Below, piece by piece: positions 19,251 to 53,409 of a stretch of 64,000 nt of DNA. Each line of letters begins with the position of its first letter. Position 1 is the stretch's first letter. The stretch spans positions 992,001 through 1,056,000 of the forward strand of contig NZ_CP013387.1 in assembly GCF_001523745.2 (NCBI RefSeq), given 5' to 3'. The position numbers and the translations under genes are program-made. The notes beneath the pieces were generated by a model. The model was not told the DNA's origin and searched no databases. It saw nothing but the letters and a program-made list of their open reading frames with translations. The stretch is from Burkholderia mayonis (lineage in GTDB: Bacteria; Pseudomonadota; Gammaproteobacteria; Burkholderiales; Burkholderiaceae).

Positions 19251-19264
19251 TGATCATATGATCA
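19251..19264. promoter_or_regulatory. Perfect 14-bp palindrome TGATCATATGATCA upstream of the binding-protein gene
   Basis: The palindrome ends 25 bases before the GTG start at 19290. Its position suggests an operator overlapping the transcription start of the amino-acid binding-protein gene. The cognate regulator is not identified. Confidence 0.45.
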
Positions 19265-19289
19265 ACGTCCGTCCAACAAGGAGACTGCA

Positions 19290-20432
19290 GTGAAAATGAA
19301 AATCCGCAAACTGTTGCCGATCAGCGCGGCTGCGATGCTCGCGGCGGCGGCCGCGACGCATGCGGCGGCCGACCAGGTCGTCAAGATCGGCAGCGCCGAG
19401 CCACTGACGGGCGGCATCGCCCACCTCGGCAAGGACAACGAGAACGGCGCGCGTCTCGCGGTCGAGGAGATCAATGCGAAGGGCCTCACGATCGGCGGCC
19501 AGAAGATCACGCTGCAGCTCGACGCGCAAGACGACGCAGCCGATCCGCGCACCGCGACGCAGGTCGCGCAGAAGCTCGTCGACGGCAAGGTCGTCGCGGT
19601 CATCGGCCACCTGAATTCGGGCACGTCGATCCCCGCGTCGAAGATCTACAGCGACGCCGGCATCCTGCAGATCTCGCCGTCGGCGACGAACCCGGCTTAT
19701 ACGCAGCAAGGTTTCAAGACGACCTACCGGGTCGTCGCGACCGACGCGCAGCAAGGCCCGGCGCTCGCCGATTACGCGAAGCAGAAGGGAATCAAGACGG
19801 TCGCAGTCGTCGACGATTCGACCGCGTACGGCCAGGGCCTCGCGAACGAATTCGAGAAGAAGGCGAAGGCGCTCGGCCTGAAGGTGCTGTCGCACGACGC
19901 GACGAACGACAAGGCGGTCGACTTCCGCGCGATCCTGACGAAGATCAAGGGCACGAATCCGGACGCGATCATGTACGGCGGCATGGACGCGACGGGCGGC
20001 CCGTTCGCGAAGCAGGCGAAGCAGCTCGGCCTGCGCGCGAAGATCTTCTCGGGCGACGGCGTGTGCACCGAGCAGTTGCCCGCGCTCGCGGGCGCGGCGG
20101 CCGACAACGTCGTGTGCTCGCAGGCGGGCGCGGCGCTCGAGAAGATGCCGGGCGGCGCGGCGTTCCAGGCGAAGTACGAGAAGCGCTTCAACCAGCCGAT
20201 CCGCTTCGACGCGCCGTTCACGTACGACGCGGTGTACATCGTCGTCGACGCGATGAAGCGCGCGAACTCGACCGATCCGGCGAAGATCCTCGCGGCGATG
20301 CCGAAGACGAACTACACGGGCGTGATCGGTACGACGATCTTCGATTCGAAGGGCGACCTGAAGCACGGCGTGATTTCCCTGTACGACTTCAAGGGCGGCA
20401 AGAAGACCTTCCTCGATCAGGTCACGATGTAA
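19290..20432 (+). CDS. Branched-chain amino-acid ABC transporter periplasmic binding protein (LivJ/LivK-like), 380 aa
   Basis: The GTG start at 19290 has AAGGAG 6 bases upstream; the ATG two codons later is too far from it. Residues 1-27 are a Sec signal peptide (KIRKLLPISAAAMLAAAAAT, cleavage near HAAA-DQ). The mature chain is a type I periplasmic binding protein: VVKIGSAEPLTGGIAHLGKD, ENGARLAVEEINAKG, AVIGHLNSGTSIPASKIY, ISPSATNPAYT and TVAVVDDSTAYGQGLANEFEKK, all typical of Leu/Ile/Val-binding proteins. No permease or ATPase gene is adjacent, so it must work with a transporter encoded elsewhere. It is followed by a strong terminator, so it is a single-gene unit. Confidence 0.92.
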   Translation: MKMKIRKLLPISAAAMLAAAAATHAAADQVVKIGSAEPLTGGIAHLGKDNENGARLAVEEINAKGLTIGGQKITLQLDAQDDAADPRTATQVAQKLVDGKVVAVIGHLNSGTSIPASKIYSDAGILQISPSATNPAYTQQGFKTTYRVVATDAQQGPALADYAKQKGIKTVAVVDDSTAYGQGLANEFEKKAKALGLKVLSHDATNDKAVDFRAILTKIKGTNPDAIMYGGMDATGGPFAKQAKQLGLRAKIFSGDGVCTEQLPALAGAAADNVVCSQAGAALEKMPGGAAFQAKYEKRFNQPIRFDAPFTYDAVYIVVDAMKRANSTDPAKILAAMPKTNYTGVIGTTIFDSKGDLKHGVISLYDFKGGKKTFLDQVTM

Positions 20433-20755
20433 GCGGCGCGGCGGAGCTTGCCGCCGGATGTGCCGATTGAAAAGACGGGCGGGCGCCGGATGCGGCGTCC
20501 GCCCGTCTCGTTTTTCGTCCGGCGGGAGGAAGGATATCGCGTTGTCGAGACGCCACCATTCCGACCGAGGCCGTCGCCGAGAAGCGCGCGCATTCGCTCG
20601 ACGCCGTGCGGCTGTCTGCCTTGCAGGCGTCGCGCGCATCGCGACTGCGAAATTCGGGGTAGTCTCGCCGTTCATGAACTTGCCGGCTGCCGCCGGGCGG
20701 CGAATTGCCTGCGGCAGTGGCGTGCCGATCGGCAATTTTCCTCTTCCGGCGACTT
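20433..20755. other. Intergenic stretch after the binding-protein gene
   Basis: Apart from the terminator at 20473-20515, I see no gene or repeat in these 320 bases. Confidence 0.4.
20473..20515 (+). terminator. Rho-independent terminator
   Basis: A perfect 10-bp stem, AGACGGGCGG at 20473-20482 and CCGCCCGTCT at 20499-20508, is extended inward by further GC pairs (GCGCCG with CGGCGT) and followed by TTTTT at 20511-20515. It closes the amino-acid binding-protein gene that ends 40 bases upstream. Confidence 0.9.
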
Positions 20756-20989
20756 TCAGGCGTTTGGAGACGTATTTGAAAACCCGGAATGTGTATTGTC
20801 GAAAGCGCGATCACCCCGATGCTCCGGCGCGATGTGCTTTGGCCGATCAATTGTAGCGGCGTAGTGGCGAGGGTAATAACCGTAGTAAATGTCGACGGTG
20901 CCGTCATTGGCGGCGAATCGCGCGACATAGGCTTCGATGCCGGGTTCCGACGGAGGCTGCGAAACGTATTGATCGCTGTCCGCGTCCAT
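20756..20989 (-). CDS. Small hypothetical protein, 77 aa
   Basis: The frame encodes an acidic, Tyr-rich protein (MDADSDQYVSQPPSEPGIEA, then DGTVDIYYGYYPRHYAATI). It has reasonable amino-acid composition but only a weak AGGG five bases before the ATG. It lies downstream of the lectin gene on the same strand, 110 bases away, and could be co-transcribed with it. I recognise no family, and a chance frame is possible. Confidence 0.35.
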   Translation of the reverse strand: MDADSDQYVSQPPSEPGIEAYVARFAANDGTVDIYYGYYPRHYAATIDRPKHIAPEHRGDRAFDNTHSGFSNTSPNA

Positions 20990-21099
20990 GAAGCCCTGTC
21001 ATCTGCGCGGCGGCATGGCGTGCCGCCGCATCCGCGAATTGCAACGCGCATGCGGCGACCGGGACGATTGGCGTGGCGTTTTCTCGAGCCTAGCCGACG

Positions 21100-21930
21100 T
21101 TATTGCGGCAATGCCGTCGCGCGGAAGCCGATCGGGCCTTCGCCGCTGTAGGTCATGCTGCCATGGAACGTGTTGCCGTTGTCGCCAGAGGTGATGTAGA
21201 GCTCCACGACGTTTTGGCCTGAGCGGCAGCCGAGCAGCCAGGTGCCGCCCGGATGCCACGGAGCAGACGTTCCACCCCACTGATTTTCGACCGCGTAGTT
21301 GTTGCCCGCGACCGAATTCCCCTTGAAGCCGATCGGCCCCTCGCCGGCATAGGTCATGTTCCCGTTCAGCGTCTTGCCGCTGTCCGTGGAGCCGATGCTC
21401 ACCGAGACAACGGCCTGATCGCGCGCGCCGATCACCCACACGCCGCCGTTGTGCCAGGGGGCCGACGAACCGCCCCATTGATTCTCGACCGCGTAGACGC
21501 CACCGTCGGCCTGCTGGCTCTTGAAACCGATCGGGCCTTCGCCCGCGTACGTCATCGTTCCCGCGAGCGTGGCGCCCTGGTCGCCGGATTCGATGTCGAG
21601 CGCCACCACGTTCTGATTGACGCGGCAGCCGATGATCCACGTGCCGCCCGGATGCCAGGGGGCCGAGCTTCCGCCCCATTGATTTTCGACCGCGTATGTG
21701 TTGCTTTGCGTGAGCGTCGCCCTGAAGCCGATCGGACCTTCTCCGACGTAGGTCATCGTGCCGGTCAGGGTCCTCCCACCGTCTCCGGACTTGATGCTGA
21801 GCGCCACGACGTTCTGACCGGAACGGCATCCGAGCACCCACATGCCGCCTTCATGCCACGGTGCCGACGAGCCACCCCATTGATTCTGCACGTGCTGCAG
21901 ATTGTTGAAGCCCTTGCTGGTCTTTGCCAT
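21100..21930 (-). CDS. OAA-family high-mannose-binding lectin with four repeats (BOA-like agglutinin), 276 aa
   Basis: Four homologous repeats of about 67 residues fill the whole chain. Each has the core NQWGGSSAPWHxGGxWxxGxR, then QNVVxLxIxSGDxGxTLxGxMTY and GEGPIGF. NQWGG...W and GEGPIGF are the hallmarks of the Oscillatoria agardhii agglutinin family, whose members bind branched high-mannose glycans. Two-repeat OAA forms one barrel, so four repeats should form two barrels, as in Myxococcus MBHA and the B. oklahomensis agglutinin. There is no signal peptide, so export would need another route. Repeat 3 departs slightly (ARDQAVVSVSIGSTDSGKT). GGAG lies 7 bases before the ATG. The gene stands alone, perhaps with the small ORF downstream. 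Confidence 0.92.
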   Translation of the reverse strand: MAKTSKGFNNLQHVQNQWGGSSAPWHEGGMWVLGCRSGQNVVALSIKSGDGGRTLTGTMTYVGEGPIGFRATLTQSNTYAVENQWGGSSAPWHPGGTWIIGCRVNQNVVALDIESGDQGATLAGTMTYAGEGPIGFKSQQADGGVYAVENQWGGSSAPWHNGGVWVIGARDQAVVSVSIGSTDSGKTLNGNMTYAGEGPIGFKGNSVAGNNYAVENQWGGTSAPWHPGGTWLLGCRSGQNVVELYITSGDNGNTFHGSMTYSGEGPIGFRATALPQ

Positions 21931-22684
21931 TTTTATCTCCGGTGATGGTACGGGTAGCGTGGGAGTTCAACCCACGTACGGAGAACGGCCTTGCACTTTG
22001 ATTTTCATTGCCGCGCCCGTCATCCTGTTCCAGAAAGCGAATGCCCAAGCAGCATGATCGAATTTGGACAAGGCAAAGACGTGTTTTGCGATTGCATGGC
22101 CGATCAAACGAGTGACCACGATTGCCTGCATAACGAGCCGATTTGTTTCTCGCAGGCGATCGACGCTGCGACTCATTCTCAAAAAAAATAGTTCAGATCC
22201 GAATCCATCACAACTACCAGAACCCGTAGGTAAGCCGCTGATTTTGCGATGGCGCGGCGACTCGGGAACGGGCGCTGTGCTGTTGCCGTACCGAACGCGG
22301 GGCAGGTCATCGTCCGCGCAGACACCTACCAATACTGTCAGGCTCCCGCCCTTGAGCGATCGCCTAGACTTCAATCATTTCACCGGGGTCCGCGCGTGAT
22401 CTTTCGGGGCGGTATCGGTGCTTCTCAGATCGGCGCGCTGCACGACACAGCATGACCGAGGCCCCGTGAATCGGCGGGACTCGCCGCGTGAAATCGGGCA
22501 GGGCGCAGACATTTGGGGTGGTGGAGTCTCGACGTCACGGGATTCAACGCCTGAGCCGGGCGTGTTCGTAGCGGCGCATCAATCTCGGCACCGAACTTTT
22601 TCTGGTATGTGCGTGCGGCCGGCAATCTGCATCATCCGCTGGAGCGACTTTCGCATACTTCAAAAACGATGGGTGGGATACCAA
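21931..22684. other. Intergenic stretch between lectin and glycosyltransferase genes, about 750 bases
   Basis: I see no supported gene. The first 250 bases are less GC-rich (for example TTCTCAAAAAAAATAG near 22185) and may contain the lectin promoter. The glycosyltransferase frame stays open upstream of 22685 but shows no protein-like features there. Confidence 0.4.
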
Positions 22685-24157
22685 ATGAATTCAGCCAGCG
22701 CCGTTCAAGATGATCCGCAAGTCGCTCATCGAAAGAACGTTCTGTTTGGGATTTCAATGGACGGGGTGCTTGCTTCCGGCATCACGGAGGAGTTTCTAAA
22801 AGTTGCGTCGATTTTCAACGGGCATGGCTATCGAATATATCTCGATCTCGGCTATGACATCAGGAGCGATAAAGGCGATTTCTTTCGACCTTACGTGAAC
22901 GAAGCCGATGCGTTGCCCGACTGGTTGACGTTGGTGCGCATTCAGGGTCTCGCCGCTGTCAGGGGATACACGCAGCGTTTGGTCACGGAAATGCTGGAGC
23001 AACTCCGGGAGCGTGACGGCGAGCGAATACGCAGATGCCTCGACGGCAGCATCGTTCCTCGGATTGCCGCGTCGATTGTGGACACCTGGCGACGTCTGGA
23101 CGTTTCGGTCGTCGTCGTGGAGAACGGGTCCCTGCCGGAGAATCTGCTGTTTTCCGAGGCTTTGCGTGTCGCAATCGAGCAGTACGGACGTGAAAGGCGC
23201 AAGGGTCCGTTCGTGCTCTGGCGGGACCACGACCTGATGTGGTTCAGCGAAAGCGCCAAATACGGAGGGCCTCCGTTCGAAGGCATTCCGAAGCCGTCTG
23301 TCTCGAAGTACATCCGATACGTGACCCTCACGAACACCGCGAGAAAGCAGCTCAACCAGTGGGCGCCGCACGTGGATGCGACCGTACTGCCAAACTGCTT
23401 TCGGTTCGCGGAAGTCGCAATCGACGACGGCAATCGACATTTTCGCTCTCGCTACGGCATTCCCGCCGATGCGCTGCTGATCGCTCGGTGTACCCGGGTC
23501 ATTCCGCAAAAAAGGCTCGATAGAGACGTCTTTCTTTTGCATGCGCTGCAGAAATCGATGCGTTCGTCAGGCGGTCAGCGGCCTGTCTATCTCTTCGTGA
23601 CCGGGCCTACCGACGAACACGAGGAAGAGCGTCGCCGGCTGTCCCGCATGGCGATCGAACTGGGAGTCGACGATCACGTTATCTATGGAAACGGGCTGCT
23701 GCCGTGCTCCGCGCTATGCCGCCCCTCGAATCGTGCATCGCGGGAGACCCGGTATTCCGTCGGCGACCTCCTCGCGCACGCCGATTTGAGTTCGTTTCTG
23801 ACCTCGTACGATTACGAAGGCTTTGGCAATCCTCCCGCCGAGGCGAGTGCTCAAAAACGCCCATTCATTAGCAGCACCTACGAAATGTACGAAGAGGTAT
23901 ACGGGGAGAAGGGTTTCAAGAGTCTTCTTTTGCGCACGCGAAAGGATTGGGACGAAATGCCCGATCACGCCTACGTGCAAGCGGTGCTCGAACTCCTTCT
24001 CGATGAACGACGGCGGGAACGATGGGCACGTTTCAACTTCGAGCTCGGGAGAAAACACTTTTCCCTGGAGTTCTTGCAGCGCCGGCTTCGCGCATGCCTG
24101 CCCGGCGCACTCGAGACGGCGCCATCCGAGGCGATGCACGGTGCAGTCAGTGTCTAG
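22685..24157 (+). CDS. GT4-family glycosyltransferase (GT-B fold), 490 aa
   Basis: The N-terminal half starts with a Rossmann-like NVLFGISMDGVLASGITEEF and a nucleotide-sugar transferase layout, with VSVVVVENGSLPENLLFSEA and the acceptor-side WRDHDLMWFSE. The C-terminal half has the GT4 donor-binding pattern: LPNCFRF, a strand LLIARCTRVIPQKRLD, LFVTGPTDEHEEE, then the EX7E motif in YDYEGFGNPPAEASAQ. It should transfer a sugar from a nucleotide donor; donor and acceptor are unknown. The ATG at 22685 starts just before the first conserved strand; no strong ribosome-binding site is seen. The radical SAM gene follows with 12 bases between, so the two are co-transcribed. Confidence 0.85.
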   Translation: MNSASAVQDDPQVAHRKNVLFGISMDGVLASGITEEFLKVASIFNGHGYRIYLDLGYDIRSDKGDFFRPYVNEADALPDWLTLVRIQGLAAVRGYTQRLVTEMLEQLRERDGERIRRCLDGSIVPRIAASIVDTWRRLDVSVVVVENGSLPENLLFSEALRVAIEQYGRERRKGPFVLWRDHDLMWFSESAKYGGPPFEGIPKPSVSKYIRYVTLTNTARKQLNQWAPHVDATVLPNCFRFAEVAIDDGNRHFRSRYGIPADALLIARCTRVIPQKRLDRDVFLLHALQKSMRSSGGQRPVYLFVTGPTDEHEEERRRLSRMAIELGVDDHVIYGNGLLPCSALCRPSNRASRETRYSVGDLLAHADLSSFLTSYDYEGFGNPPAEASAQKRPFISSTYEMYEEVYGEKGFKSLLLRTRKDWDEMPDHAYVQAVLELLLDERRRERWARFNFELGRKHFSLEFLQRRLRACLPGALETAPSEAMHGAVSV

Positions 24158-24169
24158 GAGGTGCCCTCA

Positions 24170-25633
24170 ATGTCCAGCTCGCCTATTCGGATGCTAGAGC
24201 GCGTGAGCGCTCGCGAGAGCCTGTTGCTCGTCGACGAGGATTATCCTCGGCCGCGGGCAGCGGACGTGTTGTGCAGGCCCGAGAACGATCATCTTCTTCG
24301 ATACGTCGTGCGCGACCCGTTTGGCTCGCACGTATTTCCGGGCACAAGGGAGTGTTCCCGGGAACGGTTTCTTCAGAGTCTTCAGGCTGAACTGGAAGGG
24401 CAAAATCCTTATTTTTTATGGGCGACGATTCCACTCTGCAAATACCATTGCTACTTCTGTCAATTTCCCATCGTCATGCGCAAGCACGATGAGGCGGCGT
24501 TTCGCGAGCAGGCTCGAAACTGGGTCGATCTGAACATTGCCGAGGCCAGGTTGTGGTTGGCGCTCGTGCCGGCGTTGCGGGACGCGCCGGTCGGAGAGTT
24601 TTGCCTGTTCGGCGGAACGCCCACGCTTTTGCCCGACGAATTGCTGGCCGAGCTCCTGGATTTCTACCGGTCGAATTTCGGGTTCAACGCCGACACCACC
24701 ATTCGCATCGAAGGCAGTCCCGACAGTCTCTCGAGCGACAAGCTCGCGCTTCTCCATAAAAAAGGATGCCGAAAGATCACTTATGGCATTCAGTCTTTCG
24801 ACGATCGTCTGGTTGCGCTCGCCGGGCGGGAGCACACGTCCGACGAAGCCCGGACGGTGGTTCGCCGCGCCTTCCTGTCGGGCTTCGAGCGGGTGGATGG
24901 CGATCTGATCTATGGATTGCTGGATCAGCGTGTCGAGGGATTTTGTCGCGACGTTCGGCAGATGCTGGAGCTGGGTTACAGCACGGTCGTGATGACGAAG
25001 CTGCACCTGCGTCCGTTCGGCGAAACCGGGACCGCCATCGCAGGTGTTTCCGCCAGGTGGCAGAGTCCGGCGAGCAGGGCGCGCGCGTCACGAGAGGGCC
25101 ATCGCTGGCCGAGCCTGGGAGAGCAGTATCAAATGCGCGAAGCGGCAGTCGCGTTGCTGGAGGACGCCGGACGCTTCGAGTATCCGACGATGTACTTCCA
25201 GAAGCCGGAAACCGGATGCGGACGGTGGAAGTCGCTCGTCCTCGACCAGGACAAGCAGTTCGTCGAAGTCGGAATCGGGTTGGGAGCCAGTTCCGCGACT
25301 CGGCGTTGCTCCGCCAATGTCGCGACGCGGCCGGGAGAGTATCTCGATGCGATTGCCAGCGGGGAATTGCCGCTCGAACTGCTGGAAATGAGCCCGGACG
25401 AGGAGATCGCGAGCTCGATGCGCCGCGCGCTCACTACGTGTCAGCCGCTTCGAGACGATTTGCATCGGGCCAGGTTCGCCGGCGGCTCTCTCTTCGATCA
25501 GCGATGGAAGCCGGTGTTTCAAAGCCTGGAGCGGCGCGGGCTCGCGGCGATGCGACCCGACGAAGAGACGGTCGAGCTCACCAGCGTCGGCAAGACGCTG
25601 GTCGAGGCCATCGTCAACACGGAAATACGCTGA
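24170..25633 (+). CDS. HemN-like radical SAM protein, 487 aa
   Basis: AGGAGG ends 8 bases before the ATG at 24170. The radical SAM cluster motif is CKYHCYFC (CX3CX2C) at about residue 100. Next come the coproporphyrinogen-oxidase-like strands EFCLFGGTPTLLPDELLAEL, TIRIEGSPDSLSSDKLALLH and GIQSFDDRLVALAGREH, and DGDLIYGLLDQ, all in the HemN order. The C-terminal part ends in a winged-helix-like segment (LERRGLAAMRPDEETVELTS) as in HemN and HemW. The chemistry is SAM-derived radical formation; true heme synthesis is unlikely given the neighbours. It forms an operon with the GT4 gene and converges on the QueA-like operon, ending 90 bases from it. Confidence 0.87.
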   Translation: MSSSPIRMLERVSARESLLLVDEDYPRPRAADVLCRPENDHLLRYVVRDPFGSHVFPGTRECSRERFLQSLQAELEGQNPYFLWATIPLCKYHCYFCQFPIVMRKHDEAAFREQARNWVDLNIAEARLWLALVPALRDAPVGEFCLFGGTPTLLPDELLAELLDFYRSNFGFNADTTIRIEGSPDSLSSDKLALLHKKGCRKITYGIQSFDDRLVALAGREHTSDEARTVVRRAFLSGFERVDGDLIYGLLDQRVEGFCRDVRQMLELGYSTVVMTKLHLRPFGETGTAIAGVSARWQSPASRARASREGHRWPSLGEQYQMREAAVALLEDAGRFEYPTMYFQKPETGCGRWKSLVLDQDKQFVEVGIGLGASSATRRCSANVATRPGEYLDAIASGELPLELLEMSPDEEIASSMRRALTTCQPLRDDLHRARFAGGSLFDQRWKPVFQSLERRGLAAMRPDEETVELTSVGKTLVEAIVNTEIR

Positions 25634-25722
25634 GCAGTTTGCCCGGCGGCCCCGGAGGCGGCTCGGGGAGCGCAACGGCTCGACCCGACCCGATGCTCCG
25701 GCCGTCGGACGGCATTGCGGGA

Positions 25723-27150
25723 TCATCGGGCCTGGAGCCATTGCCGGCGGCCTTGTTCGTAGCGCGGTCGATAGACTTCGGCGAGGAACGCGAGCGAGCC
25801 GGGAATGCTCGAATGCCGAGGCGGAGGGTGAAAGATGAATTCACCTTCGCGCGTGAAGTACTCGGGGATCGGCATCGTCGAGTCGTCGACTCCAGCTTCC
25901 TTGAACGCCATTTTGAGCCGAGTGTTGTAGGTCGATGTCTTGTCACAGATGAACTCCGGCCACCGCCGCCAGAGGGGGATCTCGGACCAAAGAGGGGCCA
26001 GGCGGCTCGACAGGCGAAAGAGATGCTCCGCGTGCGGGTAATACGCTTCGAGCTTTCGGTAGCCTTCTTCCTTGGTCGTTGCGGCTTCGACGACGCCCTG
26101 GAGCAGAGTGCGATAGTAGCCGAATATCTCTTCGAAGCCGTCTGCATCCTTGACGATGAATGGATCCGCACATTCGCCCTTGACCAGCGTATCCACGCCG
26201 AAGAAAACCGACGCGAAGGCGCTTGCGTGCGTCTGCGAGATGCCGTCGCCGGGCCGGAGCGAATACCGTTTGCGCTTGATGCCGTAATGGATCGCACGCA
26301 GCACCGAGCCGGCCTTGCGGCTCAGCAGGCCGCGCCACGATGTCTTCAGGAAAATGCCGAGGAGTTCCGCCTCCGGCCGGCCGCGGATACGGTCCAGGTT
26401 CGCCAGTCCGTCCCGTCCTCGCTGCGTGAACACGAGCATGTCGGGCTGTCTGACTTCGCGGCTGCGAGTCTGCCCCACGGGCAACAGGCTGTCGAAGTAT
26501 TCCAGCCGCAGGAACTCGTTGGTCCCGGGCGGGAAGATCAACTCGCGAGCGATCATGTTGACGACGATGTCATGGTCGTGGATATCGCGCTCGAGCAGCC
26601 AGGGCCAGACGTCGTACGCGAGGACGAGATCGGCCGCTGTCCAGACGATCGCATCGTCCGCGTCGGCGGCGATAAGCGGGGCCGTGCTGCGCTTGAACGA
26701 ATCGAAGAAAGAGATGCGGCTCTTGTCCTCTTGCACTGTGATCAGATCGCATGTATCGCGGATCCAGCCTATCTGAGCAACGTAATCGCGCACGACTTCC
26801 GCCACACGGCAGACCTCGGGCGGCGCATAGAGGCAGATGCGGATTCCGGCGCGCGCGAAATTGAGCAGCGGCAGGACCACGACCGGAATGTTGTCGAGCA
26901 CCGGGTAAAGGAACTTGACGTCGTCGACGCCGCTTTCGATCGATCTGTTCAAGCGCGTACTCTCGATCGCGTACGGACACCATTTGCGGCCAAGGCGGTG
27001 TTGAGTGAGGATTTCGATGCGGCGTTGAAGGCGATCCCGGATCGTCTCGCGAAGGGCCTCCTCGGGCGAAGAGAACAGTTCGTGGCTTGCTGCAATCGCC
27101 ACGTTTCGGGCCGGCCAGCGCCTTTTCTTGCTGATCGTCGAGTCGCTCAT
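25723..27150 (-). CDS. Nucleotidyltransferase-like protein of unknown role, 475 aa
   Basis: The start is at 27150, behind a GAGGA site and five bases after the preceding stop, so it is the last gene of a four-gene operon. The first half looks like a sugar-nucleotidyltransferase-type Rossmann fold. It has a Lys/Arg-rich loop, a segment FLYPVLDNIPVVVLPLLNFA, GIRICLYAPPEVCRVAEVV and an acidic strand DADDAIVWTAADLVLAYDV followed by NMIARELIFPP. The canonical GxGTRM glycine loop is not visible, so activity is not proven. The second half is alpha-helical with many aromatic residues (YGYYRTLLQ, AEHLFRLSSRLAPLW). I recognise no named family. A role in preparing or attaching a nucleotide-linked group is inference from fold and context. 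Confidence 0.6.
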   Translation of the reverse strand: MSDSTISKKRRWPARNVAIAASHELFSSPEEALRETIRDRLQRRIEILTQHRLGRKWCPYAIESTRLNRSIESGVDDVKFLYPVLDNIPVVVLPLLNFARAGIRICLYAPPEVCRVAEVVRDYVAQIGWIRDTCDLITVQEDKSRISFFDSFKRSTAPLIAADADDAIVWTAADLVLAYDVWPWLLERDIHDHDIVVNMIARELIFPPGTNEFLRLEYFDSLLPVGQTRSREVRQPDMLVFTQRGRDGLANLDRIRGRPEAELLGIFLKTSWRGLLSRKAGSVLRAIHYGIKRKRYSLRPGDGISQTHASAFASVFFGVDTLVKGECADPFIVKDADGFEEIFGYYRTLLQGVVEAATTKEEGYRKLEAYYPHAEHLFRLSSRLAPLWSEIPLWRRWPEFICDKTSTYNTRLKMAFKEAGVDDSTMPIPEYFTREGEFIFHPPPRHSSIPGSLAFLAEVYRPRYEQGRRQWLQAR

Positions 27151-27155
27151 CGGGT

Positions 27156-28373
27156 CTATCCTCGATTTTTTGCGGTCTGGCTCGCGCGCGAATCCGCAAA
27201 CCGCCGCTGAAAGTCGCGACGCTCGAATCCGGCGGGCCAAGGGCGGCCTGTCATGAGATCCGCGGCCAGGCGTCCGAGCGTGTCCGAACACGCGGCAGCC
27301 GCACCGTTGCCTGCCGTCGCGACGAACAACCCGTCGTCCAACTCGTCGATATAGGGCTTGCCGTGCGCGCTGTAGGTGACGAGGCAGCGCTTTGCGCGAG
27401 CCGAAAGCAAGTCGAGATCGGGCAGCAGATGAAACATGGCCTCGCGTATGTCCGATCGCGGCTCGTCGGAGCCGGAGATCATCCATTGCTGAATCGCATC
27501 GAAGCTCGGCAGGATCATGTCCGCGTCCGTGTTGGCGCCGAGCTTGAGGTAATGATTGCCGTCCGGATAAAGCATCGGCGGGACGACATAGACGTCGGAA
27601 ATCGAACGCGAATCGATCCGGTAGCTAATCGGCGGCAGTGCTCGAAGTCGCTCCGATTCGGCTCCGGAAACCTGAAGGAGGACTGTGTGCTCCGACTTGA
27701 CGCGCAAATCGAGCTTGCGAGGCAGGAGATCGAAGCAGTTGGAGTACGCGCCGGCGCTGACCAGCACCTTGTTCGCGGTGTAGCGTCGGCCGCAGGCCGT
27801 GTTCAACTCCCAGTGTGCGGCGCGCCTGCGGATTGCCGTGACGATGGCGCAAATGACGCTCGCGCCGTTGGCTTTGGCTATCGTCAAGTGGTTGTGCCGC
27901 AACGCGAGCGGACCGAAGATTCCGGCCGGCGCGTGCTCGAGCAGGCCGTGAAAGCCAGCGGGAAAGCGGAGCGGCGATAGTCGCCCGGCGCACGCCGCGC
28001 TTGCGAGTTCGACGTGGTCCACCTTCAGGCTGCGCGCGAGCCGGACTCGCTCTTGCATGATCGGGTCATCCAGCGGCGCCACATAGAGCATGCCGAGCGG
28101 CCGGTAGGACCGCGCTCCGCCAACCTGTTCCAGACGGGCGTACTCGTCCATCGATCGATGGACGAGTCTTGCCCAGACGTGATCGCGAGAAAGCCGCGTC
28201 GCAATCCGCCCCGCGTCGTGATGGCTGGAGAAGAGGCCTCGATGTGCGCGCCCATCCCGGGGCTCGTCGGGACCGATGGCCGCGACGCTTTCGGACGCGA
28301 CGCTGAGGTAGCGCAGCGTCGCGGCTCCGATGAGCCCCTTGCCGACGACTGCGTGCTCGTAGTGGCGCATCAT
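27156..28373 (-). CDS. FAD-dependent oxidoreductase, DAO/sarcosine-oxidase-like, 405 aa
   Basis: The N-terminal FAD-binding beta-alpha-beta unit reads HAVVGKGLIGAATLRYL (GxGxxG at about residues 10-15). It is followed by FSSHHDAGRIATRLSRDHVW and, in the substrate domain, RPLGMLYVAP, VLVSAGAYSNCFDLL and the C-terminal FAD contact KPYIDELDDGLFVATAGNG. This is the D-amino-acid/sarcosine oxidase layout, which oxidises secondary or primary amines. The ATG at 28373 overlaps the previous stop as ATGA, indicating translational coupling with the flavin monooxygenase. No covalent-flavin cysteine was identified with certainty. Confidence 0.85.
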   Translation of the reverse strand: MMRHYEHAVVGKGLIGAATLRYLSVASESVAAIGPDEPRDGRAHRGLFSSHHDAGRIATRLSRDHVWARLVHRSMDEYARLEQVGGARSYRPLGMLYVAPLDDPIMQERVRLARSLKVDHVELASAACAGRLSPLRFPAGFHGLLEHAPAGIFGPLALRHNHLTIAKANGASVICAIVTAIRRRAAHWELNTACGRRYTANKVLVSAGAYSNCFDLLPRKLDLRVKSEHTVLLQVSGAESERLRALPPISYRIDSRSISDVYVVPPMLYPDGNHYLKLGANTDADMILPSFDAIQQWMISGSDEPRSDIREAMFHLLPDLDLLSARAKRCLVTYSAHGKPYIDELDDGLFVATAGNGAAAACSDTLGRLAADLMTGRPWPAGFERRDFQRRFADSRASQTAKNRG

Positions 28374-29674
28374 GATCGCGTTTCGGCGCGGCATCGCAGC
28401 CGGGCGGCAATATAGGGCGCGTCGAGGTGGAATCCGGCCACCGTTCCCGAGGACTGCGTCCGAAGGCCGTGGAAGCCCAGCCAATAGAAACCGTCGACGG
28501 GGGTTTCGCAGGAAGCCGGAAGTCCGCGAGAATCCAGCGCCCGGCGAACTTCGTCGATCCGCAGCCAGCTCAAGTCGGCGCGCCAGCCCGTGGCCCACAC
28601 GACGGCACGGATGCCATGCTCGCGCAGCGTCACGCTCGTGGGTGGGGTAGACGCGAGAAGCGGGGGATACGGTTGCCACGCCGGCTCGGCTGTCGGCGGC
28701 GGATACCGCGTGTGCGCGTTTGCGTCCCGGTTTGCGATCCAGTTCTCGATGCGATCGATCAGCGCCTGGTAGCCTTGCGATGCAAATGCAATGTTGGCGT
28801 GGAGATCCTCGTCGAACGTCGCAACCGCGCCGTCTGGCGAGATGCCGCTCAGGCGCCCCAGCAGTTGAACGCCGAGCCGAGCCAATGAATGGTGAGAAAT
28901 CGGATGATCGTGGCCGACGATGGGCATTTGATCGGGTTGTTCGGCAGGATGCGCGAACGCGCTCTTCGGGGCGCTCAGGAACCCGATTCGGTCCAGCCAG
29001 AACATGATGTCCTCGCCGCGGTAGCTGCGCGGGGTTCCCTTGACTCTCGACGTTGCCAAGTACACGCTGCGGCCGGCCGTCGCCAATTCTTCGCTGAGCT
29101 GCACGCCCGTTTGACCGCCGCCGACCACCAGCACGGGGCCGTCCTGCACGGCCGACGGGTTCGTATATGTCCCGACGTGGAGTTGCTGCACTTCGGTGCG
29201 CAGATGCCGTGCGAAGTCGGGAATTCTCACGAGCTGGTAATTGCCCGGCGCGGCGACGACGTTCAGCGCGTCGTAACGTCGCGGGCCATCGTCGCCTTCG
29301 ACGTGGACCCGGAAGCGTCCGCCTTCGATCCGCTCGACCGAGCCGACCCGGCAGCGCTCACGGATGGGAAAGCGCCTCTGCGCGATGCATGCGTCCCACA
29401 TCCGTACCATCTCTTCGAGCGGGATGCTTCGCCGGATGCCGGGAAGTCCATCGATCTGTCCCATCAACCTCGAATAGGCGAGCGGAGAATTGATTCTGAA
29501 CGAATCCCATCGCGCCGATCGCCATTGTTCGAGCGCGCGCGCTTTCTCCAGCACCACGTGCTCGCGTCCCTCGCGCTGCAGGACGTAGCTCATGCAAAGC
29601 CCCGCATGACCGGCGCCGATCACGACGGTGTCGATGCGTTTGTCTCGTTCCATGGCACTCGTCGACGGCGCCAT
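28370..29674 (-). CDS. Flavin-dependent monooxygenase (CzcO/FMO-like), 434 aa
   Basis: Two dinucleotide-binding motifs are present: TVVIGAGHAGLCMSYVL for FAD near the N-terminus and VLVVGGGQTGVQLSEEL for NADPH near residue 175. The string LEKARALEQWRSARWDSFRI and the late VVWATGWRADLSWL are typical of class B flavoprotein monooxygenases, with an FxGxHxLRT-like end reading WLGFHGLRTQSSGTV. These enzymes insert oxygen at carbon, nitrogen or sulfur using NADPH and O2. The start could be the ATG at 29674 or the one seven codons later (MERDKR). It begins four bases after the QueA-like stop and overlaps the next gene by four bases, so it is firmly within the operon. Confidence 0.85.
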   Translation of the reverse strand: MAPSTSAMERDKRIDTVVIGAGHAGLCMSYVLQREGREHVVLEKARALEQWRSARWDSFRINSPLAYSRLMGQIDGLPGIRRSIPLEEMVRMWDACIAQRRFPIRERCRVGSVERIEGGRFRVHVEGDDGPRRYDALNVVAAPGNYQLVRIPDFARHLRTEVQQLHVGTYTNPSAVQDGPVLVVGGGQTGVQLSEELATAGRSVYLATSRVKGTPRSYRGEDIMFWLDRIGFLSAPKSAFAHPAEQPDQMPIVGHDHPISHHSLARLGVQLLGRLSGISPDGAVATFDEDLHANIAFASQGYQALIDRIENWIANRDANAHTRYPPPTAEPAWQPYPPLLASTPPTSVTLREHGIRAVVWATGWRADLSWLRIDEVRRALDSRGLPASCETPVDGFYWLGFHGLRTQSSGTVAGFHLDAPYIAARLRCRAETRS

Positions 29675-29678
29675 GCCG

Positions 29679-30743
29679 TTACAGGATCAGCATGCTGTCG
29701 CCGAACATGTCGAATTCGTATCCCCCCATCTCGAGAATCTCCGCGTAGCCGCGCATGAGGAGAGCCTTGCCCGCGAAGGCCGCGGTCAGGACGATGTGGC
29801 TGGATCGCGGCCGATGGAGGTTCGTGAGCAGCCCGTTCGCGATCTTGAACTCGAATCCGGGATAGATATAGAGTTCGGTCCATCCCGCCTGGGCCCGGAA
29901 GGCGGCGCCCGGCTCGCCATGAGCCGCAAGCGACTCCAGCGTTCGCATGGCTGTGGTGCCGATCGCGATGATGCGGCGCTTCTCCGCTCGCGCCCGGTTG
30001 ATTTGCTCGGCGGCCTCGGCTCCGACTTCGAAGTACTCCGGCCTGACCTTGTGCTGCTCGATCTCGTCCTCGTCGATATGGCGAACCGCGAGGATCTCCG
30101 TTGCTCCGACATGCAGCGTGACGTAAGCGAATTCGACGCCCTTGTCGGCGAGCCGCCTTAACACGTCGGTGGAAAAGTGCAGGCCTGCGGACGGAATTTC
30201 CAACGAGCCGGGTTTCCTGGCGTACACGGCGCGGTATGCATCGGGCCGCGTGCGCCAGTAAACGGGGTTGAGAGGAATCGTTTCGTCCGAGCGCCATCCG
30301 CGGCGATCGAGGACGCCGACGAGTTTCCCCGCAGGTTCGAATCGCGCGCTCCAGAGTTGATTCGGCTCCGGAGAGAGCAAGGTGCAGCTGAGCTGGCTGT
30401 CGTCCGTGGCGGTCAACGTGAGGCCGGGCCGCGGCGATTGGGAAGATCTGAGTTCGACGATGCTCGTTCCGTCGGGCTCCTGACCGTACACGATCACGTG
30501 CGCGGACTCGTTGCCATGCCGGAACGACAACGTGTTCGACAGCATGTAGCTGTCGTTGAAGACCAGAAGGTCGCCCGGCCGAAGATGGTCGGAAATGGTG
30601 GGGAAAATCGTATGCTCGATCGTGGTCGCGGCGCGATCGAGCACGATCATTTTGCCGCTGTCGCGACGCTTGCCGCGCAATTCGGCGGGATCGGTCGGCA
30701 TGGCTTTCCAATCGAGGCCGAAATCGAAATCGTCGGTTTTCAT
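29679..30743 (-). CDS. Divergent QueA-like S-adenosylmethionine ribosyltransferase-isomerase, 354 aa
   Basis: The chain follows QueA from end to end: RRDSGKMIVLDR, LRPGDLLVFNDSYML, YRAVYARKPGSLEIPSAGLH, VTLHVGATEILAVRHI, RRIIAIGTTAMRTLESL, ELYIYPGFEFKIANGLLTNL and a closing FDMFGDSMLIL. Housekeeping QueA uses SAM as ribosyl donor to make epoxyqueuosine in tRNA. Here several hallmark positions differ: FNDS for FNDT, PSAGLHF for PTAGLHF, HVGATEI for HVGxGTF, and LTNLHRPRSSH for LTNFHLPxST. That suggests a paralogue with a changed acceptor. No tgt, queF or other queuosine gene is near, whereas tailoring enzymes are. It is the first gene of the operon. Confidence 0.85.
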   Translation of the reverse strand: MKTDDFDFGLDWKAMPTDPAELRGKRRDSGKMIVLDRAATTIEHTIFPTISDHLRPGDLLVFNDSYMLSNTLSFRHGNESAHVIVYGQEPDGTSIVELRSSQSPRPGLTLTATDDSQLSCTLLSPEPNQLWSARFEPAGKLVGVLDRRGWRSDETIPLNPVYWRTRPDAYRAVYARKPGSLEIPSAGLHFSTDVLRRLADKGVEFAYVTLHVGATEILAVRHIDEDEIEQHKVRPEYFEVGAEAAEQINRARAEKRRIIAIGTTAMRTLESLAAHGEPGAAFRAQAGWTELYIYPGFEFKIANGLLTNLHRPRSSHIVLTAAFAGKALLMRGYAEILEMGGYEFDMFGDSMLIL

Positions 30744-31754
30744 CGTTTATTGTCCTTGGCAGTCCATTTTTCAGGACTGGATCCGATGACTCAGTATTCG
30801 GTAAGCCACGCGCACGACCGGCAATTAATCCGGCTCGTTGTGCCGCCTTCGGCACCATTTGGCGAATCAACGGCAAAGGTCTATCCGAAGAAAGGCGCTG
30901 AAGCTGGCCAGATGCCCCAGTGTCGAGGGCATTTACAGCCTAGGACATGCGATATCCGTTTTCAAATCGATAAAGAAATCGATGCGCGGCGGCATTGGGG
31001 TTTTCTTACGCATCCGATGATGTCGCCGTCATTCGGTTCGCTTCCGGCACGCAGAGGCGCTCGATGCGGGCTTCCAATCGCCCGCCGATCCGGACCGACA
31101 GGTGCGCTGCGGCGAACCGGGAGCGTGAGGCCGGTCAGAAGCTCGGATCCACGCTTGACGAAACCGAGTTCGAACGGCGGCGAAGCATGCGCCCGGAAAC
31201 GCTATTGCTTTCGACGCGGCATCCTTCTTTTATAGTCGTCGATATCCGTCTGGTGCGTTCGATTCGATGCGCGTATGTGAAATTAAACGCGTTGCCACTT
31301 CACAAATAACATTGCCGACGTGCGGAAACATCCATGAAATACGGGATCACGATGCGAGTTGATGGATCGATTCGGCTTGAGCGCTACACGCTCGTCCGCG
31401 GATTTTTCTTCCATGTGAATGGGAAGCGGACATAGGCGCGTATTCGCCGTGGCCAGCGGATTGCGCATCAGGTTGGTCGATGCGTCGGCCCTTCGGCATC
31501 GGAAACTGAGTGCGAGAAGCAGTCCGCCGGTACCGGTGCTCGTGCCGAGCAGCGCCCATCACGACCCGATGCGGGACATGGGCCGACCGTTCGGCGCTGA
31601 CTCGGGCGGCATGTGCGCAGGGATCATTTCCCGCAGTGGGTGGCGGCCGCAGCCCTATCGGCCGCACCGGAGTGCTTCGTCGGCTGAACCACGTCCGTTC
31701 CCGGCTCGTCGCACGTCGCGAGCGCGGCGCGTGTTCTTGCTCCCTGCCGCACAG
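30744..31754. other. Gene-free stretch upstream of the QueA-like operon, about 1 kb
   Basis: No supported gene was found on either strand. Two AT-richer parts are seen, around 30780-30990 and 31200-31340 (for example TTTTATAGTCG and AATTAAACG). The first is well placed for the promoter of the QueA-like operon, which reads leftward from 30743. Confidence 0.45.
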
Positions 31755-32222
31755 CTACAGCGGCATCGCACTCGTGCACTTGATCTCGTCGAGGCACACG
31801 CTTGAATGCACGCCGCTCACGCCGGGGATGCGCATCAGCGTGTCGAGCAGGAACGTCGACAAGCCCTTCAGGTCCGCGGCGACGACTTTCAGCACGTAGT
31901 CGATGTCGCCCGTGACGGAGAAACACTCCTGAATCTGCGCGAGCTCGGAGACGAGCTTCTGGAACGTCGACAAGTCGCGGATGTGGCCGCGCTCCATCGT
32001 CACCTGGACGAACGCGGTGACGCCGAAGCCGAGCGTGCCGGCGTCGAGCCGGGTCTCGTAGCGCTTGATCGCGCCGATCTCCTCGAGCCGGCGATGCCGC
32101 CGCAGCGTCTGCGCGGGCGACAACCCAACTTCCTTGGCCAGCTCCAGGTTGGAGATGCGGCCGTTTTCCTGCAGGATGTCGAGCAGATGGCGATCGATGC
32201 GGTCGAGAAGCGCTTCTTGCAT
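31755..32222 (-). CDS. Lrp/AsnC family transcriptional regulator, 155 aa
   Basis: An N-terminal AsnC-type helix-turn-helix (LDRIDRHLLDILQENGRISN, LELAKEVGLSPAQTLRRHRR, LEEIGAIKRYETRLD) is followed by the RAM ligand-binding domain (FVQVTMERG, IQECFSVTGDIDYVLKVVA, IPGVSGVHSSVCLDEIK). Such proteins sense an amino acid and act as octamers on promoter DNA. The gene is divergent from an aromatic amino-acid permease and aminotransferase across 327 bases, so it most likely controls that pair in response to an aromatic amino acid. Confidence 0.9.
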   Translation of the reverse strand: MQEALLDRIDRHLLDILQENGRISNLELAKEVGLSPAQTLRRHRRLEEIGAIKRYETRLDAGTLGFGVTAFVQVTMERGHIRDLSTFQKLVSELAQIQECFSVTGDIDYVLKVVAADLKGLSTFLLDTLMRIPGVSGVHSSVCLDEIKCTSAMPL

Positions 32223-32247
32223 TTTTGTTTCCTTATTTGTCTCCTGG

Positions 32248-32280
32248 ATGCAATCTTATCTCATAATGTAGGGTTTGCAT
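32248..32280. promoter_or_regulatory. Inverted repeat in the Lrp-permease control region
   Basis: ATGCAA at 32248-32253 and TTGCAT at 32275-32280 form a perfect inverted repeat with a 21-base AT-rich spacer containing TATCTCATAATG. It lies 26 bases upstream of the regulator start, in the 327-base divergent region, and could be an Lrp site overlapping a promoter. The rest of the region (32281-32549) is GC-rich without recognised features. Confidence 0.35.
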
Positions 32281-32549
32281 GAAGGGCTTACGAAACCCCA
32301 TTTCATCCCGCCAGCGATAAACTGAGCGCCGATTTTTGCGCGAGATCAAAGAAAATCGGTGCGCGCGGGCAGGAGCGGGGCGGCGGCTTTCCCGCTCGAT
32401 GCAAGGCGACGCGCGCTGCGCAAGAATTCGGCATCCCCAGCCCGGCCGGCCGCCGTGACGAACCACGACGGCGGCCGGAACAGTACACAGCGCCCGGGCC
32501 GGCCCGAAGGCGCGCCGCCTCCAAGAAAGGCGGATGAGACGGAGAAGAC

Positions 32550-33935
32550 ATGGTTTCGGATCAGGACAACGACGGACTCAAGCGGGGGCTGAAGAACCGC
32601 CACATCCAGCTGATTGCGCTAGGCGGCGCGATCGGCACGGGGCTCTTCCTCGGCATTGCTCAGACGATTCGGATGGCGGGGCCGTCGGTGCTGCTCGGCT
32701 ACGCGCTCGCCGGCGTCGTCGCGTTCTTCATCATGCGGCAACTGGGCGAGATGGTCGTCGACGAGCCCGTCGCCGGCTCGTTCAGCTATTTCGCGAACAA
32801 ATATTGCGGGCACTTCACGGGCTTCCTGTCCGGCTGGAACTACTGGGTGCTGTACGTGCTCGTCAGCATGGCCGAGCTGTCCGCGGTCGGCATCTACGTT
32901 CAATACTGGTGGCCGGGCGTGCCGACCTGGATCTCCGCACTCGTGTTTTTCGTCGCGATCAACGCGATCAACCTCGCGAGCGTCAAGTCGTATGGCGAAA
33001 CCGAATTCTGGTTCTCGATCATCAAGGTCGCCGCGATCATCGGGATGATCGGCTTCGGCGGCTATCTGCTGCTGTCGGGCCACGCGGGTCCGGACGCCGG
33101 CGTCGCGAACCTGTGGCGGCACGGCGGTTTCTTCCCGAACGGCATCGGCGGTCTTGCGATGGCGATGGCGGTCATCATGTTCTCGTTCGGCGGGCTCGAG
33201 CTCGTCGGCATCACGGCCGCCGAGGCCGACGATCCGTCGCACAGCATCCCGCGCGCGACGAACCAGGTGATCTACCGCATCCTGATCTTCTACATCGGCG
33301 CGCTCGGCGTGCTGCTGTCGCTTTATCCGTGGCAGAAGGTCGTGACGGGCGGCAGCCCGTTCGTGCTGATCTTCCACGCGCTGTCGAGCGACATCGCCGC
33401 GAACGTGCTGAACGTCGTCGTGCTGACGGCCGCGCTGTCGGTCTACAACAGCTGCGTCTACTGCAACAGCCGGATGCTGTACGGCCTCGCGCGGCAGGGC
33501 AACGCGCCGCGGGCGCTCGCGCGCGTGAACGGGCGCGGCATTCCGATCGCGGCGCTCGGCGCGTCCGCGTTCGCGACCGCGCTGTGTGTGGTGATCAACT
33601 ATTTCATGCCGGGCAAGGCATTCGAACTGTTGATGGGACTCGTCGTATCGGCGATCATCATCAACTGGGCGATGATCAGCGTGATCCACCTGCGGTTCCG
33701 CCAGGCAAAACGCGCGGCGGGCGAGGAGACGCGCTTCAAGAGTCTCGGCTACCCGCTGACGAACTATCTCTGTCTCGCATTCATGGCGGCCATCCTCGTC
33801 GTCATGTTCCGGACGCCGGATCTGCGCCTGTCGGTCTACCTGATCCCCGTGTGGCTCGCGGTGCTCGCGATCGGCTACCGGTTCCGCCAGCGCGGCGCCG
33901 GCTATGCGCTCGGCGGCGGCGTCTCGGCCCGTTGA
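32550..33935 (+). CDS. Aromatic amino-acid permease (AroP/PheP-type APC transporter), 461 aa
   Basis: The product is an APC-superfamily amino-acid:proton symporter with twelve predicted membrane spans. The first span carries the amino-acid-binding unwinding motif ALGGAIGTGLFLGIAQ, followed by GEMVVDEPVAGSFSYFANKY, SGWNYWVLYVLVSMAE and FSFGGLELVGITAAEADDP, all AroP/PheP/CycA-like. GGAGA stands before the ATG. The aminotransferase gene follows 32 bases later on the same strand, supporting uptake and transamination of phenylalanine, tyrosine or tryptophan under control of the divergent Lrp-type regulator. Confidence 0.9.
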   Translation: MVSDQDNDGLKRGLKNRHIQLIALGGAIGTGLFLGIAQTIRMAGPSVLLGYALAGVVAFFIMRQLGEMVVDEPVAGSFSYFANKYCGHFTGFLSGWNYWVLYVLVSMAELSAVGIYVQYWWPGVPTWISALVFFVAINAINLASVKSYGETEFWFSIIKVAAIIGMIGFGGYLLLSGHAGPDAGVANLWRHGGFFPNGIGGLAMAMAVIMFSFGGLELVGITAAEADDPSHSIPRATNQVIYRILIFYIGALGVLLSLYPWQKVVTGGSPFVLIFHALSSDIAANVLNVVVLTAALSVYNSCVYCNSRMLYGLARQGNAPRALARVNGRGIPIAALGASAFATALCVVINYFMPGKAFELLMGLVVSAIIINWAMISVIHLRFRQAKRAAGEETRFKSLGYPLTNYLCLAFMAAILVVMFRTPDLRLSVYLIPVWLAVLAIGYRFRQRGAGYALGGGVSAR

Positions 33936-33967
33936 CCCCGATTTTTCCTCATCAGTCAGAAACCGCC

Positions 33968-35170
33968 ATGTTTGAACATATCGATGCATACCCCGGCGAT
34001 CCGATTCTCACGCTGAACGAGAATTTTCAGAAAGACCCGCGCACGCGCAAGGTCAACCTGAGCATCGGCATCTATTTCGACGACGACGGCCGGATTCCCG
34101 TGATGGGCGCCGTGCGCGAGGCCGAGGCCGTCGTGCAGCGCGAGTCCGGTCCGAAGCCGTATCTGCCGATGACGGGGCTCGCGTCGTATCGCGATGCGGT
34201 GCAGGCGATCGTGTTCGGCGAGGACAGCGACGCGCGCGCGCACGGGCGCATCGCGACGGTGCAGACGCTCGGCGGGTCGGGCGCGCTCAGGATCGGCGCG
34301 GACTTCATCAAGCGCTACTTCCCGGGCTCGCAGGTGTGGCTCAGCGATCCGAGCTGGGAGAACCATCGGTTCATCTTCGAGCGCGCGGGCTTCACGGTCA
34401 ACACGTATCCGTACTATGACGAGGCGACGGGCGGCCTGAAGTTCGACGCGATGCAGGCCGCGATCGACGCGCTGCCGAAGAAGAGCATCGTGCTGCTGCA
34501 CGCGTGCTGCCACAACCCGACGGGCGTCGACCTCGACGACGCGCAATGGCTGAAGCTGATCGACGTATTGCAGGCGCGCGAGCTGCTGCCGTTCGTCGAC
34601 ATGGCGTACCAGGGCTTCGGCGCGGGCCTCGCAGCCGACGCGTTCGCGATCCGCGAGCTCGCGCGCCGCGGCGTGCCGGCGTTCGTCGCGAACTCGTTCT
34701 CGAAGAACTTCTCGCTGTATGGCGAGCGCGTCGGCGGGCTGTCGGTGATCTGCGACGATGCGGCGGCGGCGGAGCGCGTGCTCGGCCAACTGGCAGGCGC
34801 GGTGCGCTCGAACTACAGCAATCCGCCGACCTACGGCGCGAAGATCGTCGCGCAGGTGCTGACGACGCCCGCGCTGCGCGCGCAATGGGAAGAAGAGCTC
34901 GCGACGATGTGCCGGCGCATCGCGAAGATGCGCAGCGCGATCCACGACGGCCTGCGCGCGCACGTGCAGGGCGAGGCGCTGTCGCGCTACGTGAAGCAGC
35001 GCGGGATGTTCACGTACACGGGCCTGACCGAAGCGCAGGTCGAGTGCCTGCGCGAGCAGCACGGCGTGTACGTGTTGCGCTCGGGCCGGATGTGCGTCGC
35101 CGGGTTGAACGAGGCGAACGTCGGGATCGTCGCGGATGCGTTCGGCGCGGTGATCGCGAGCGGCGTCTGA
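33968..35170 (+). CDS. tyrB: Aromatic amino-acid aminotransferase (TyrB-like), 400 aa
   Basis: A class I PLP aminotransferase of the AspC/TyrB type and usual length (400 residues). Landmarks are VNLSIGIYFDDDGRIPVMGA at the N-terminus, TVQTLGGSGALRIGADFIK, HACCHNPTGVDLDDAQW, FVDMAYQGFGAGLAADAFAI and the PLP-lysine segment NSFSKNFSLYGERVGGL. An Arg that binds the substrate carboxylate is in VLRSGRMCVAGLNEANV. The segment DDDGRIPVM, rather than the DxxGxTPVL of AspC, fits the aromatic subgroup. It is encoded directly after the permease and likely makes arylpyruvates from imported amino acids using 2-oxoglutarate. Confidence 0.9.
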   Translation: MFEHIDAYPGDPILTLNENFQKDPRTRKVNLSIGIYFDDDGRIPVMGAVREAEAVVQRESGPKPYLPMTGLASYRDAVQAIVFGEDSDARAHGRIATVQTLGGSGALRIGADFIKRYFPGSQVWLSDPSWENHRFIFERAGFTVNTYPYYDEATGGLKFDAMQAAIDALPKKSIVLLHACCHNPTGVDLDDAQWLKLIDVLQARELLPFVDMAYQGFGAGLAADAFAIRELARRGVPAFVANSFSKNFSLYGERVGGLSVICDDAAAAERVLGQLAGAVRSNYSNPPTYGAKIVAQVLTTPALRAQWEEELATMCRRIAKMRSAIHDGLRAHVQGEALSRYVKQRGMFTYTGLTEAQVECLREQHGVYVLRSGRMCVAGLNEANVGIVADAFGAVIASGV

Positions 35171-52277: not shown

Positions 52278-52298
52278 GGTTTCGTTCCGCCGTTCATG

Positions 52299-53377: not shown

Positions 53378-53409
53378 GTCGTTGCTCTCTCATGTGGATG
53401 ACAAAAACA

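Follow-up and report, generated by a model that had tools for sequence, protein, structure and literature searches.

What does a QueA-type S-adenosylmethionine (SAM) ribosyltransferase do when it is encoded apart from the queuosine genes? The question is raised by six genes of Burkholderia mayonis at positions 22685 to 30743 of a 64,000-nucleotide stretch of DNA (hereafter the window), which lies on the second of the two contigs of this 6.59 Mb genome. The plus arm of the locus encodes a glycosyltransferase (GT) of the GT4 type and a HemN-like radical SAM enzyme, and the minus arm, which faces it, a QueA-like protein, a flavin monooxygenase-like protein, a DAO-type FAD oxidase and a 475-residue protein. 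As an initial annotation made from the sequence had described, all six open reading frames (ORFs) are present and intact in two tightly spaced, convergent arms, and its family calls for QueA, DAO, Pyr_redox_3, Radical_SAM and GT4 hold by their Pfam scores. On balance, we regard this as an accessory specialised-metabolite locus, in which a ring derived from the ribose of SAM would pass to an acceptor other than tRNA, with oxidation and glycosylation to follow.

The QueA-like protein (354 aa, 29679–30743, minus strand; PF02547, 287.4–287.8 bits) matches the profile PRK00147 over its full length (residues 1–354 of 354, E 2.3e-72), yet it falls below all three NCBI cut-offs for QueA (243.8 against 324, 218.8 against 267.45 and 163.8 against 588 bits). 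The genome contains a second, canonical QueA, which scores 422.5 bits against PF02547. Its gene adjoins a tgt homologue (56% to Magnetococcus Tgt) elsewhere in the genome, whereas no tgt lies beside the window copy. Given this canonical queA–tgt pair, the window gene is not needed for queuosine, and the protein, to judge from its sequence, is probably not the tRNA enzyme.

When 8000 candidates were scored against the QueA-like protein, 202 gave E <= 1e-60 and the best 120 clusters were listed, headed by Burkholderia sp. ABCPW 14 (95% identity). Fungal names are attached to 37 of those listed (Aspergillus, Metarhizium, Tolypocladium, Mortierella, Alternaria, lichens and others) and actinobacterial names to 13 (Nocardia, Nocardiopsis, Kitasatospora, Spirillospora, Actinosynnema and a Pseudonocardiaceae bin); the fungal labels are the source databases' own, and the lichen assemblies are possibly contaminated. 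A maximum-likelihood tree of 80 rows comprised 69 of the 122 QueA-like sequences (37 labelled as fungi, 13 as actinobacteria, six as Burkholderiaceae and 13 environmental without a name), nine canonical QueAs and two divergent relatives (L019 and L022), L023 and L024 being left out. The 69 QueA-like rows form one clade (support 100/100) on a stem of 1.46 and the nine canonical rows a second (100/99), with the two divergent relatives, both from plasmids, outside either clade; the software flagged the branches that separate the groups as long. Two fungal-labelled rows, Tirmania (P0022) and Entomortierella (P0030), group with bacterial ones, perhaps through contamination or as endosymbionts; the other 35 are split over several groups, with the basal order in the clade unresolved.

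Residue conservation follows the same division. There are 37 positions shared by at least 95% of the QueA-like rows and by all nine canonical rows, whereas at 27 positions that are invariant in the nine canonical QueAs the commonest residue among the 69 QueA-like rows is different; VG-x-GTF-x-P in canonical QueA, for example, is VGATEI-x-A in the QueA-like proteins. The full-length match and the 37 near-invariant residues are consistent with the window protein probably sharing the SAM chemistry of canonical QueA (TIGR00113, PRK00147), from which it is set apart by its scores, its clade, the changed invariants and the fungal presence. Because the two QueA crystal structures discussed in the available part of a review of SAM chemistry contain no bound substrates (PMC10491745), we infer, rather than observe, that the clade has retained SAM handling and altered the acceptor site.

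A further divergent QueA relative is located on two plasmids typed as conjugative, Sinorhizobium meliloti pRmeGR4a (L025, 3666–10115) and Geobacillus pGeo12a (L026, 7701–18741). Both have a diaminopimelate decarboxylase-like gene and a CPBP protease near the QueA relative; the former also has two radical SAM genes, and the latter two thymidylate synthases together with PqqD-like and NUDIX genes. These regions are possibly a second QueA-based biosynthetic cluster.

In bacteria the QueA-like gene has a recurrent partner, the flavoenzyme. Its gene starts four bases downstream in the window (434 aa, 28370–29674, minus strand; PF13738 (Pyr_redox_3), 58.5 bits). The best NCBIfam match of this flavoenzyme is the MSMEG_0569 family of the Nit1C cluster, but the score of 234.7 bits is less than half the cut-off of 498.35, and none of the other five genes was recognised as Nit1C-type. 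Of 8000 candidates scored, 566 gave E <= 1e-50; the best 120 were listed, none of them with a fungal name, and the first is again from Burkholderia sp. ABCPW 14 (97% identity). The first 54 listed constitute a close group, 53 with at least 48% identity plus P0186 (Sphaeroforma) at 42%, beyond which identity is at most 41% and E jumps from 1e-88 to 1e-75. Linkage was approximated by an identical exact size of the longest contig in both match lists, with one contig per cluster and one later row without a size left out. Among the matches listed, 10 of the 54 close flavoenzyme clusters, and none of the 65 distant ones, share a contig size with a QueA-like cluster. Six of these ten contigs exceed 12 kb, and for five the same organism is named in both lists (Burkholderia sp. 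ABCPW 14, B. ubonensis, Nocardiopsis halotolerans, Spirillospora and Actinosynnema). The separate clade, its fungal and actinobacterial presence, the bacterial flavoenzyme partner and the canonical queA–tgt pair elsewhere make it likely, at the level of sequence comparison, that the window gene encodes a QueA-type SAM ribosyltransferase acting outside queuosine.

The locus is accessory. Twelve of 13 congeners queried proved to have the AsnC-type regulator, and in all six of the twelve that were compared the block from the regulator and permease onward (31758–35170) is kept at 82–84% DNA identity; none of the six locus proteins, nor the lectin that neighbours them in B. mayonis, was found around the block in these six. 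At E <= 1e-80 the QueA-like gene was present in three of 398 family genomes (B. mayonis itself, a second Burkholderia, G033, and G193). It was absent from 60, 58 and 32 genomes of three further genera, which largely overlap the 398-genome family sample, and was found in one of 11 genomes of another sample, the already known G193. The flavoenzyme was found in none of 16 family genomes, and the 475-residue protein in one of 65 genus genomes and one of 398 family genomes, its own each time. Near the QueA-like gene of G193 (L018, 9849–15158), sequence reading suggests JmjC/cupin, glycosyltransferase, prolyl-4-hydroxylase and MetZ-type lyase genes, perhaps another QueA-based cluster.

The corresponding region of G033 (L017) has the same arrangement of four genes, whose products are 85% (QueA-like), 87% (flavoenzyme), 89% (radical SAM) and 85% (GT4) identical to those of the window; the neighbouring lectin is 93% identical, and the flanks are conserved too. 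Between the flavoenzyme and radical SAM genes lies a relic of the DAO gene of about 95 residues (52% identity), and the 475-residue gene is missing. Since G033 keeps the four genes in order, with the relic in the right place, the synteny exceeds chance. The relic and the missing gene also indicate that the six-gene form was probably ancestral to both loci, two genes having been lost in G033.

The DAO-type oxidase (about 405 aa, 27156–28373, minus strand; PF01266, 108.7 bits) is encoded from a start that overlaps the flavoenzyme stop by four bases (ATGA), and its best NCBIfam match, N-methyl-L-tryptophan oxidase, is below the cut-off (79.9 against 257 bits). Five bases further on begins the gene for the 475-residue protein (25723–27150, minus strand), whose predicted structure displays an RmlA/GlmU-type nucleotidyltransferase fold. 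The label 'nucleotidyltransferase-like' given in the initial annotation thus finds no footing in sequence, as no Pfam family was detected in any of 17 members, but agrees with the predicted fold, and on this model the protein represents a new family whose fold is of the nucleotidyltransferase type. No sequence relative was found in the PDB, where the one match was at chance level (E 1.5). While the predicted fold is that of RmlA, GlmU and IspD, the protein differs from these enzymes in the absence of a sequence match, in a C-terminal helical extension and in lacking the GxGTR Gly-rich loop, the nucleotide-binding signature of RmlA/GlmU-type enzymes; the consensus of its N-terminal strand is VAI-ASHE.

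Relatives of the 475-residue gene occur in eight loci without the other five genes, and heptose genes adjoin them in five of the eight. Corallococcus llansteffanensis has two diverged copies on one 33.8-kb contig (L005, L010), and Myxococcus vastator and Corallococcus sp. CA053C have two copies each. No copy was found on plasmids, nor was the 475-residue protein in viral contigs, where the QueA-like protein was likewise not found. Contig sizes in common with the QueA-like list are 12398 and 12902, and with the flavoenzyme list 12398 and 540262. Since the 12398 contig has the same size and the name B. ubonensis in all three lists, it probably carries at least three of the six locus genes.

The plus arm consists of the GT4-type glycosyltransferase (490 aa, 22685–24157, plus strand; PF00534, 28.9 bits against a cut-off of 26.4) and, 12 bases downstream, the HemN-like radical SAM enzyme (487 aa, 24170–25633, plus strand; PF04055, 53.6 bits). 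In NCBIfam the former matches mannosylglucosylglycerate synthase best, with 52.7 bits, far short of the cut-off of 640, and the latter is below the equivalog cut-offs for HemN (88.4 against 324.95), HemW (79.7 against 205.4) and HutW (99.7 against 400 bits). The radical SAM enzyme has the C-x3-C-x2-C motif (C90, C94 and C97, invariant in seven of seven aligned), and its radical SAM core resembles those of HemN (PDB 1olt) and the methyltransferase NocN (9p2u), although the match spans only about 210–220 of its residues. Glycosyl transfer at the locus is likely, as it encodes both a GT4 and a nucleotidyltransferase-type fold.

These two genes have a life of their own, as the same ten plasmid records are matched by both proteins. 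In all ten the GT4 gene is upstream of the radical SAM gene on the same strand, with 1277–1590 bases between the matches; identity to the window proteins is 35–39% for GT4 and 35–41% for GT4 and radical SAM together. The plasmids belong to Paraburkholderia phymatum, P. sabiae, P. phenoliruptrix, Cupriavidus taiwanensis, Rhizobium jaguaris and Sinorhizobium garamanticum, all six of them rhizobial species, and to three Duffyella and one Pseudochrobactrum, the last with its radical SAM gene in pieces in different frames. Eight of the ten regions were obtained. A search of six of them with the locus proteins recovered GT4 and radical SAM alone, and no homologue of QueA, the flavoenzyme, the DAO oxidase or the 475-residue protein. 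Compared with the plasmid cassette, typified by Bphy_7707 and Bphy_7706 of P. phymatum, which has a slot of about 1.3–1.6 kb in all ten records and in the five regions aligned a GT2 in the slot or fused (71–77% identity; Pfam run on two), the window has 12 bases, no GT2 and an added QueA arm. Homology between this GT2 and the 475-residue protein was considered and rejected, the profile comparison giving a probability of 0.2%. The data available from two transcriptome studies of P. phymatum nodules show log2 fold changes of −4.98 for Bphy_7707 (GT) and −4.07 for Bphy_7706 (radical SAM) in a nifA mutant (PMC8305402), and of −3.6 for Bphy_7707 in an rpoN mutant (PMC5979394). Expression of the cassette in these nodules therefore needs NifA. 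No product name for the cassette was found in the sources examined.

The independence of the cassette lends weight to the view that two unrelated loci lie side by side, the cassette contributing to a glycan of the cell surface or of symbiosis, and the minus arm to a separate metabolite. The ten plasmid records, the lack of minus-arm homologues in the six regions searched and the drop in nodule transcripts in the nifA (both genes) and rpoN (GT gene) mutants all fit such an arrangement. Nevertheless, the arms remain adjacent and intact in G033 despite deletion of the genes between them, and the window cassette is without the plasmid GT2, showing that the cassette itself has changed. We therefore consider two independent loci unlikely, if still worth keeping in view.

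A hypermodified tRNA nucleoside, also put forward in the initial annotation, is now a minor rival only. Here the QueA-like enzyme would act on tRNA or another RNA, and the GT4 and radical SAM enzymes would decorate the modified base. The full-length QueA profile match accords with this, and in animals queuosine is a substrate of GT4 and GT2 glycosyltransferases. The P. phymatum symbiosis plasmid, moreover, has queE, a gene of the 7-deazaguanine pathway, about 10 kb from the cassette (L033, 23424–24317), and its transcript is also lower in nifA-mutant nodules in the available data (log2 fold change −4.11, PMC8305402). However, the annotations of P. sabiae and P. phenoliruptrix, whose gene tables are incomplete here, show no queE in the 14 kb to either side of the radical SAM gene; the recurrent neighbour of the QueA-like gene is the flavoenzyme, not tgt; the commonest residue is another one at 27 canonical invariants; and the subfamily is common to fungi, whereas eukaryotes are said, in the part of the source available, to get queuosine from bacteria (PMC10639084). 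Nucleic-acid modification is thus improbable. Least probable of all is a decaying or transient genomic island with no coherent product, as the rarity of the QueA-like gene and the 475-residue protein (three of 398 family genomes and one of 65 congeners, respectively) and the truncated DAO gene and absent 475-residue gene of G033 are set against six intact, tightly coupled window ORFs and four remaining G033 genes that are 85–89% identical over their full length, which suggests selection.

We return to the specialised-metabolite locus. The available part of the SAM-chemistry review gives a proposed mechanism for canonical QueA in which adenine and methionine are released and the ribose is transferred and isomerised to an epoxide on the substrate amine (PMC10491745). 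Taking gene content, synteny, the relic, clade membership, contig-level linkage and the predicted fold as observed, we propose a route that is conditional in every catalytic step, in its acceptor and in its product. As in the canonical reaction, the QueA-like enzyme would strip SAM of its ribose carbons, with adenine and methionine left over, and pass the ribose-derived unit to a non-tRNA acceptor, most likely a small amine, which would yield an aminocyclopentitol. Canonical QueA itself makes a ring structure, and mannostatin is a compound with a C5 aminocyclopentane ring. The adjoining FAD monooxygenase would oxidise the acceptor or the product, with a second oxidation by the DAO-type oxidase in this strain; the nucleotidyltransferase-type protein would activate a sugar or carbocycle phosphate; and the GT4–radical SAM cassette would provide glycosylation and a HemN-type radical modification, such as C-methylation. 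The order of the later steps is a guess. Only tentatively do we extend this to the view that QueA chemistry, which makes the ribose of SAM into a five-membered carbocycle, was recruited from tRNA modification to the synthesis of small molecules and has passed between bacteria and fungi, as a new way of making (epoxy)aminocyclopentitol natural products, which at this locus would be further oxidised and glycosylated.

Several observations weigh against a specialised-metabolite locus. All six genes together were read in a single genome, and the link between the arms rests on two Burkholderia genomes. The loss of the DAO and 475-residue genes from G033 suggests that these two may be dispensable, or the locus there decaying. 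The QueA-like gene of G193 (57–59% identity) is without the other five genes. No non-ribosomal peptide synthetase, polyketide synthase or dedicated exporter was recognised among the ORFs read or scanned, which cover part of the window. Equal contig size reflects linkage only indirectly, and a coincidence may be among the four short matches (3.2–4.5 kb). Furthermore, 110 of the 120 listed QueA-like clusters, including all 37 fungal-named ones and Paraburkholderia P0023, have no flavoenzyme match, an absence that says little because only listed matches were compared, with one contig per cluster. Co-occurrence of all six genes had been set beforehand as a test, and homologues are largely scattered in other genomes. 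One conserved six-gene pathway is accordingly rejected, as the GT4–radical SAM pair and the 475-residue gene occur without the others, the QueA-like gene is found in fungi and the sister genome has lost two genes; the locus looks to have been put together from separable modules. The ribosylated or glycosylated product of the initial annotation keeps its likely ribosyltransferase and likely glycosyl transfer without that unity. Its remark that it knew of no described pathway with this gene set agrees with the literature searched, mostly without subscription papers, where no paper on this QueA branch was found either, several result lists being mostly off topic.

Between the arms lie 89 bases, stop to stop (25634–25722), in which no terminator-like site was found; promoter and terminator consensus matches at the locus are not above chance, and no RNA family reached its gathering threshold at 19000–34000 of the window. 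The PADLOC models of anti-phage defence gave no family for five of the six locus proteins and, for the flavoenzyme, one trivial FAD-motif match (E 0.00045) that is not a defence system. An OAA-family lectin with four sugar-binding repeats, spaced 198–201 bases apart, is encoded at 21100–21930 on the minus strand (PF17882, 293.8 bits in four stretches) and may be an unrelated neighbour of the locus. Type VI secretion genes (TssK, the TssC sheath, a ClpV-like ATPase and TssF) occupy 50931–62997.

In the available part of the SAM-chemistry review all seven mentions of QueA stand within the queuosine section (PMC10491745), and a 2005 survey, likewise available in part, reports QueA homologues only in bacteria (PMC1282579). 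If our reading is correct, gene naming would be corrected, as many of these proteins are now called tRNA or queuosine enzymes in the source databases. The QueA-like protein, a small single-chain enzyme, is amenable to assay, and the nodule-induced GT–radical SAM cassette of P. phymatum offers a testable symbiosis function. A separate QueA clade that extends to Aspergillus, Metarhizium and Mortierella, and that in bacteria recurs together with a flavoenzyme, would point to a SAM-ribose route in specialised metabolism.

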